A stretch of DNA of 64,000 bases, from positions 42,158 through 106,157 of the forward strand of contig JAUREI010000001.1 of NCBI GenBank assembly GCA_030827515.1, given 5' to 3'. Below the pieces are notes generated by a model. That model was not told the origin of the DNA. It worked only from the letters and a program-made list of their open reading frames with translations, and did no database searches. This stretch comes from Prosthecobacter sp. Its GTDB lineage: Bacteria > Verrucomicrobiota > Verrucomicrobiia > Verrucomicrobiales > Verrucomicrobiaceae. Made by a program: the position numbers and the translations under genes. Positions 39,066 through 40,814 of the stretch are shown here, piece by piece (position 1 is the stretch's first letter; every line of letters starts with the position of its first letter).

Positions 39066-39629
39066 ATGCCCGCCCCGGACGCCCCCCCGCTGACGCCCGA
39101 CACCACGCTTGCCCAGGTGCTGCAGAGCTACCCGGGTGCGCGCCGTTCGCTGTTTGCCCGCTACCACATTGGCGGCTGCAGTGCCTGCGCATTCAGCCCG
39201 ACCGAAACACTGACCGAACTCTGCGCACGCAACGGCGCCATTCCGGTCGACGAGCTGATCGAACACATCCGCAGCAGCCACGAGGAGGACGTCAAACTGC
39301 AGATCACGCCGGCCGAACTCGCTGACTGGCTGTCCCGGGATTCAAGGGTCCGCCTGCTCGATGCCCGCACCCGCGAGGAACACGAGGCCGTCTGCATTCC
39401 CGGCTCCCAGCTTGTCACCCAGGAGCTTGTGCAGGAAGCCTTCAATTACTGGGACAAAAACGCCCCCCTGGTCATTTACGACCACACCGGCAGCCGCAGT
39501 CTCGACATCGTCGCCTACTTCATCGGTCATGGCTTTGACAACGCCCGCGGCCTGGCCGGCGGCATCGACGCCTACAGCGCCGAGGTCGATCCCAGCCTGC
39601 CCCGGTATCGCGTCGAACTCGAGGACTGA
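39066..39629 (+). CDS. DUF1858-like plus rhodanese-fold protein with no catalytic cysteine
   Basis: A 187-residue protein. Residues 1-70 resemble the DUF1858/ScdA-N helical module with a CxxC pair (GGCSACAF, near residue 37). Residues 78-180 are a rhodanese domain, but the position normally holding the sulfur-accepting cysteine is Asp139 in VIYDHTGSRS, so sulfurtransferase activity is not expected. The remaining fold blocks (LLDARTREEHE, ARGLAGGIDAYS) are intact. It may act as a protein-protein or redox adaptor, perhaps for Fe-S or nitric-oxide-damage repair by analogy with ScdA-type modules; this is inference. It ends 4 bp before the fusion gene. Confidence 0.75.
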   Translation: MPAPDAPPLTPDTTLAQVLQSYPGARRSLFARYHIGGCSACAFSPTETLTELCARNGAIPVDELIEHIRSSHEEDVKLQITPAELADWLSRDSRVRLLDARTREEHEAVCIPGSQLVTQELVQEAFNYWDKNAPLVIYDHTGSRSLDIVAYFIGHGFDNARGLAGGIDAYSAEVDPSLPRYRVELED

Positions 39630-39633
39630 GCCC

Positions 39634-40710
39634 ATGAGTGCAGCCGACTTTCAACCCCTGAGTGTCGCCGAAGCCGCCCTCTGGCGCGATGAACTCGACG
39701 CCCGCGGCCACCGTCTGGTTTTCACCAACGGCTGCTTCGACCTGCTTCACGCCGGCCACGTCCGCTATCTGAATCAGGCGCGAGCCCTCGGCGATGCTCT
39801 GCTGGTCGCCGTCAATTCCGACGCCTCGGTGCGCGCCCTCAAGGGGCCTAGCCGGCCGGTCAACCCGGAGCATGACCGCGCCGAGGTGCTGGCGGCCCTG
39901 CGCGCCGTCGACGGCGTTGTCATCTTTGGCGAGGAGCGCGCCACCCGCCTCATCGAAGCCATCCGCCCTCACGTCTATGCCAAGGGCGGGGATTACACGA
40001 TCGATTCGCTCAATCCCGAGGAACGTGCCGCGCTGGCGGAGGCCGGCAGCGCCATTCGCATCCTGCCACTTGTCCCGGGTCGCTCCACGACAGCCACCCT
40101 GCAGCGCGCAGCCATACCGGAAGGCGGCCCTCGCCGGCTACGACTCGGCGTTCTCGGCTCCGGCCAGGGCTCGAATTTCCGCGCCATCCTTGACGCCATC
40201 GCCGCCGGCAGCCTCGACGCCGAAGTCGCGCTCGCCATCTCGGATCAGGCCGATTGCGCGTTTCTGGAAACGGCGCGCGTGGCCGGCATCGAGGCACGCC
40301 ATGTGGACCCCGGCCCGCAAGCCCGTCGTTTGGGCGACGCAGCCCAAAAGGAAATCGCCGAGCACCTGCGCCGCGCCCGTGTGGATCTCGTCGTGCTCGC
40401 CGGTTTCATGAAAATCCTGCGTGACCCCGTGTTGAACACCTTCGACGGACGCATCATCAACGTCCACCCCTCCCTGCTGCCGAAGTTCAAAGGTGTTAAC
40501 GCCCCCCGCCAGGCCCTGGAAGCTGGTGAACGCGAATCGGGTTGCACGGTCCATCTCGTCGCCGCCGAAATCGACGCAGGCCGAATCCTTGGCCAGGCCC
40601 GTGTTCCCATTCTGCCGGATGACACTCCGGACAGCCTACATGAGCGCATCAAACGGGCCGAGCACGAACTGCTTCCCACAATCCTTGCGTCATGGTCGCC
40701 CGAAACTTGA
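39634..40710 (+). CDS. Fusion of heptose-1-phosphate adenylyltransferase (HldE-C/RfaE2) with phosphoribosylglycinamide formyltransferase (PurN)
   Basis: A 358-residue single reading frame joining two enzymes of unrelated pathways. Residues 1-155 are the nucleotidyltransferase that makes ADP-heptose for LPS, with FTNGCFDLLHAGHVRYL (HxGH) near residue 30 and ending at GRSTTATLQRA. A linker of about 12 residues leads to a full PurN starting RLRLGVLGSGQGSNF near residue 168. Asn276, His278 (NVHPSLLPKF) and Asp314 (EIDAGRI) match the catalytic trio and even its 38-residue spacing in E. coli PurN. No internal Met separates the parts and there is no frameshift. Translation follows the rhodanese-like gene by 4 bp. 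Confidence 0.87.
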   Translation: MSAADFQPLSVAEAALWRDELDARGHRLVFTNGCFDLLHAGHVRYLNQARALGDALLVAVNSDASVRALKGPSRPVNPEHDRAEVLAALRAVDGVVIFGEERATRLIEAIRPHVYAKGGDYTIDSLNPEERAALAEAGSAIRILPLVPGRSTTATLQRAAIPEGGPRRLRLGVLGSGQGSNFRAILDAIAAGSLDAEVALAISDQADCAFLETARVAGIEARHVDPGPQARRLGDAAQKEIAEHLRRARVDLVVLAGFMKILRDPVLNTFDGRIINVHPSLLPKFKGVNAPRQALEAGERESGCTVHLVAAEIDAGRILGQARVPILPDDTPDSLHERIKRAEHELLPTILASWSPET

Positions 40711-40740: not shown

Positions 40741-40814
40741 ACTAATGCAAATATTTTGCTTTTTTGCTTGCAGCGTTAATGCAATTGTATTGTATTTGCA
40801 GCACCTCGCTGACC
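40741..40814 (+). promoter_or_regulatory. AT-rich regulatory region with inverted repeats upstream of the zinc-type module
   Basis: In an otherwise GC-rich neighbourhood this 74-bp stretch is strongly AT-rich. GCAAA-TAT-TTTGC (40747-40759) is an inverted repeat with 5-bp arms. A second site spans about 40778-40800 with outer TGCAA and TTGCA arms. Several TTGCA words recur. The arrangement looks like a Fur-family operator (Zur would fit the genes) overlapping a promoter; a possible -35 TTGCTT lies at 40764-40769 but no confident -10. Operator identity is inference. Confidence 0.45.

Follow-up and report, generated by a model that had tools for sequence, protein, structure and literature searches.

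In the window, that is, the whole 64,000-nucleotide stretch of DNA that was analysed, positions 39634-40710 encode a single 358-residue chain in which an HldC-like nucleotidyltransferase is followed by a complete PurN. We consider it probable (roughly 0.8), judging from sequence comparisons, that this is a bifunctional polypeptide of two independently working enzymes, which would have arisen by stop loss in an ancient hldC-purN pair. No account of an hldC-purN fusion was found in the open literature searched, and the fusion is apparently undescribed, representing a new domain architecture of which both component enzymes are already known. Its features are as follows.

39634..40710, + strand: fused hldC-purN coding sequence, 358 aa (open frame, Pfam/NCBIfam domains, fused homologues)
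39621..39625, + strand: putative ribosome-binding site GAGGA, within the 3' end of the upstream gene (read from the sequence)
39691..40110, + strand: HldC-like (RfaE domain II) nucleotidyltransferase domain, residues 20-159 (TIGR02199; Foldseek to 5xf2)
39748..39759, + strand: HxGH motif (HAGH, residues 39-42), of which H39, G41 and H42 are invariant in 41 fused proteins
40087..40113, + strand: C-terminal helix of the HldC domain, residues 152-160, after which PurN is attached (AlphaFold2 model)
40114..40137, + strand: inter-domain linker, residues 161-168 (~8, flexible; AlphaFold2 pLDDT dip, codons listed)
40141..40689, + strand: PurN (GAR transformylase) domain, residues 170-352 (TIGR00639; Foldseek, including E. 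coli 1cde)
40459..40467, + strand: PurN catalytic Asn276 and His278 (align to E. coli N106/H108; invariant in 41 fused proteins)
40573..40575, + strand: PurN catalytic Asp314 (aligns to E. coli D144; D in 40 of 41 fused proteins)

Between ATG 39634 and the stop codon (40708-40710) the frame is uninterrupted. It stays open further upstream, where the first ATG is at 39361, but ATG 39634 is preceded by GAGGA at 39621-39625 and has the stop of the upstream gene 4 nt before it. Pfam matches were obtained to CTP_transf_like at residues 30-129 (64.5 bits) and to Formyl_trans_N at residues 170-350 (175 bits). The open frame and these domains, together with the NCBIfam matches described below, bear out the first-pass annotation, which had described a one-frame fusion of a heptose nucleotidyltransferase with PurN.

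The N-terminal half scored 178.3 or 180.5 bits against rfaE_dom_II (NCBIfam TIGR02199), 1-3 bits below the curated equivalog cut-off of 181.5, and we therefore refer to it as HldC-like. Its predicted fold was matched by Foldseek to Burkholderia HldC (5xf2; TMt 0.82-0.87, 48% identity). The HxGH motif previously read from LLHAGH is indeed present, and the residues invariant across the 41 fused proteins comprise H39, G41, H42, K70, K117-G119, S151 and T152, corresponding to the HxGH and KGG/STT motifs. Two features of Burkholderia HldC are absent here: EXTP is replaced by an ERAT-type sequence, and the ATP-stacking Phe (Phe143) by Leu146. The HldC-like half is predicted to act as an adenylyltransferase on heptose-1-phosphate; in view of these replacements, its exact nucleotide specificity is only putative. 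A profile search found no second HldC in the genome that contains the window. A second, partial HldC copy (L181, G020:C73:12806-13324; 78% identity), with a TAG stop inside, was seen in another genome about 15 kb from its fused gene.

The C-terminal half scored 201.6 bits against the NCBIfam PurN model TIGR00639, above the curated equivalog cut-off of 150.1, and its Foldseek matches were GAR transformylases, including that of E. coli (1cde). Alignment to E. coli K-12 PurN places N276, H278 and D314 opposite N106, H108 and D144, in agreement with the earlier claim that the catalytic residues keep the 38-residue spacing. This half is thus expected, from its residues and fold, to carry out the PurN step of purine synthesis, in which glycinamide ribonucleotide is formylated. 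No second PurN was found in the same genome, as the two other Formyl_trans_N matches read by sequence as PurU and Fmt.

Elsewhere in this genome, HldD scored above its cut-off, while HldA (343 bits versus a cut-off of 345, 2 short) and GmhA (178 bits versus 209, 31 short) fell below theirs; the HldA and GmhA genes adjoin on a contig other than that of the fused gene, and the genome also encodes a glycosyltransferase-9 (heptosyltransferase family) protein. The profile matches indicate that the ADP-heptose pathway is present, with its HldC step encoded together with purN.

Roughly 100 genomes of the order carry the fused frame, for the most part at 52-74% identity, so that the survey of the architecture proposed in the first-pass annotation shows the fusion not to be confined to one genome. 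Most of the 68 family genomes have a full-length fused match, as does the majority within the genus; four other families of the order (f3, f4, f5 and f6) contain fused frames too. Across the class as a whole, hldC usually adjoins purN, with a stop codon, a few bases or a short overlap at the boundary; the junctions there (L141-L155) include hldC-stop-few bases-ATG-purN in one frame, and overlaps of the ATGA or GTGA kind with purN in another frame. In some families of the class (f19; G533 and G615) and in many genomes elsewhere in the phylum, the genes are apart or only one was detected. Of 74 other HldC loci in the genome collection, almost all of them outside the phylum, none had PurN within its flanks. 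The statement that both halves normally stand alone therefore holds across bacteria and fails within the class, where they are usually neighbours. Overall, adjacency of hldC and purN is characteristic of the class, and their fusion chiefly of the order. A fused locus in Spartobacteria (L042) is probably a separate fusion event. The PurN domain of one locus in the window's genus (L023) is identical to that of L043 (Prosthecobacter sp., Verrucomicrobiaceae), which makes the organism Prosthecobacter-like.

Beyond the fused gene, no conserved neighbourhood was found in the relatives examined. The upstream gene (window 39066-39629), which ends 4 nt ahead of the fused start, encodes a hybrid-cluster-associated disulfide-type domain and a rhodanese domain; at this position it was found only in the window's own locus, and not in the relatives examined. 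Downstream, an AT-rich segment (window 40746-40800) separates the fused gene from a probable outer-membrane protein gene, which is followed by genes for a ZnuA-type metal-binding protein and an ABC ATPase. This segment contains a 90% palindrome at 40778-40791 and an 8-nt inverted repeat, and resembles a metal-regulator operator, for which it is a candidate.

In the phylogenetic tree of PurN, the members of the order group together (SH-aLRT 92), and the relatives with adjacent genes fall outside. Inside this group are also found split pairs (L121-L123) and the PurN-only members of families f3 and f4, and the split pairs L122 and L123 cluster with the fused L180 (SH-aLRT 94). A topology in which all fused members of the order form one clade, with every split or single copy outside, was rejected (p-AU 1.6e-59), and the fused state has therefore been broken, or gained, more than once. 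Separate genes in close relatives had been named beforehand as evidence against the fusion; some close relatives do have them (L121-L123), from which it follows that the architecture can change; the fusion itself is not thereby refuted. For family f2, which has only PurN, a position outside the fused group is possible (p-AU 0.68), and a firm placement inside the fused clade was not supported by this test; both a single and a repeated origin of the fusion are compatible with these results. The HldC tree is broadly similar to the PurN tree and weakly resolved.

Either half can be lost or decay independently of the other, in cases that are few and not independent in their ancestry, and that stem in part from incomplete genomes; HldA, HldD and PurT were compared with the state of each half in 23 genomes. 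Six of the eight f2 genomes tested have neither HldA nor an HldC match and keep PurN, in the other two (g12) the frame of an HldA domain is longer and extends into a distant HldC, making the gene HldE-like, and a ninth genome (G144) has a separate HldC. Three genomes of genus g24 have neither half of the fused gene, nor HldA, and have PurT. A member of the window's own genus (G044, locus L128) keeps the reading frame, the length and an intact HldC (69% identity). Its PurN half, however, no longer has the phosphate-loop sequence, shows N to C and D to Q changes at the catalytic Asn and Asp, and scored 25.7 bits against the cut-off of 150. This half is possibly a pseudoenzyme domain. PurT is present in G044; a candidate for a second, compensating PurN, on contig C211, was rejected as it reads as Fmt.

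The two domains appear to be flexibly joined. The AlphaFold2 model comprises two confident domains (mean pLDDT 92.9, pTM 0.66), with pLDDT of 64-79 in blocks covering residues 141-170 and the lowest confidence at about 151-170. The low confidence of the linker, together with a pTM of only 0.66, suggests that the domains have no fixed arrangement. Across the fused loci the linker varies from 3 to 135 residues (median 11), which argues against a fixed interface or channelling. In two loci (L126 and L127, in G060 and G061) it is unusually long, at about 120-135 residues, and Pro/Ala-rich with repeated TQGIP/TQSIP-like segments. The window's linker contains no in-frame ATG, GTG or TTG, and an internal start giving free PurN was therefore rejected for this gene. 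By contrast, an in-frame ATG lies close to the junction in 46 of the 70 fused loci, and in these relatives a second start for PurN may be possible.

Taken together, these observations are consistent with a history that began with tightly adjacent hldC and purN genes, probably co-translated. An ancestor inside the order, or at its root, would then have lost the stop codon or small overlap between the two genes, and the fusion may have been kept mainly because one chain supplies an equal dose of both enzymes at little cost, with no substrate passing between the halves. The ADP-heptose and purine pathways have no common intermediate. The first-pass annotation had left the choice between a tolerated accident and a coupling of the two pathways. 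The tight unfused pairs, the variable linkers, the repeated splitting and loss of halves and the second route through PurT favour the tolerated and inherited joining of an adjacent pair, and no evidence of coupling was found. The functional meaning of the fusion is most likely modest, although its retention across most of the order could mean that it has some selective value.

An unlikely explanation is that only one half matters catalytically in this organism, with PurN being largely redundant with PurT and kept as a passenger or for the folding or oligomer stability of HldC. The genome encodes PurT, the formate-dependent GAR transformylase (619 bits), as do the other family members tested, and PurN is therefore not the sole route for GAR formylation; the decay of the PurN half in G044, in a retained frame, also fits. 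However, the catalytic residues are conserved in the window's protein and in nearly all fused relatives, implying continued selection, and two fused members (G072 and G086) had no PurT above the cut-off.

Somewhat less probable again, and in our view unlikely, is that the fusion ties the supply of purines to the synthesis of ADP-heptose, for instance by mutual regulation of the active sites or by an action of PurN on the mobile C-terminal helix of HldC. The hldC-purN pairing is old and widely kept, and adenine nucleotide is a currency shared by both pathways, but the halves are split or lost independently (in G044 PurN has decayed and HldC is kept), the linker spans 3 to 135 residues, the pTM for the relative domain orientation is low, and the family members tested have a further GAR transformylase, PurT. 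The C-terminal helix of Burkholderia HldC reportedly moves during catalysis (PMC7993394), and in the AlphaFold2 model PurN follows directly after this helix, which leaves a narrow possibility of allosteric influence. It is conceivable, if rather improbable, that ligand binding or helix movement in HldC alters PurN activity, or the reverse, and that purine and LPS precursor supply are in this way co-adjusted in Verrucomicrobiales. An assembly or sequencing artefact at the junction, a concern raised in the first-pass annotation for which the fragmented draft (4.05 Mb in 315 contigs) might speak, is practically ruled out by the same fused frame in many independent assemblies, including the single-contig genomes G061, G067 and G072.

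Our preferred reading is of two independently working enzymes on one chain. The fusion is a clear, order-wide example of enzymes of unrelated pathways joined together, with the intermediates visible as adjacent, overlapping, fused, split and half-decayed genes. The value of the fusion lies in this clear evolutionary series and in the caution that it advises when linkage is deduced from fusion: whether domain fusion indicates functional linkage ("Rosetta stone" inference) or is a mere consequence of gene adjacency becomes a testable question. A further caution for Verrucomicrobiota is that hldC or purN may be overlooked when a gene is annotated by whichever half scores best.

Compared with known systems, the HldC-like half resembles HldE of E. 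coli and HldC of Burkholderia pseudomallei (5X9Q/5XF2) in having an HxGH domain with TNG, NSD, KG and KGG motifs, and it shares with HldC systems a partner kinase, HldA, that is encoded elsewhere in the genome. It differs from the Burkholderia enzyme in not retaining the EXTP motif and the ATP-stacking Phe, and from HldE in its order: in HldE the nucleotidyltransferase is C-terminal to the HldA kinase, whereas here it is N-terminal and joined to PurN. The PurN half is like E. coli PurN (1CDE, 3AUF) in its full-length domain, its Asn-His-Asp at identical spacing and its close fold match; however, E. coli PurN is free-standing and encoded beside purM, whereas the window's PurN has an N-terminal HldC domain attached. 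A PurN within a multi-enzyme chain is also found in the vertebrate trifunctional GART (PurD-PurM-PurN; in the PDB, trifunctional adenosine-3). The domains of GART all belong to one pathway, whereas the partner of PurN in the window belongs to lipopolysaccharide synthesis.
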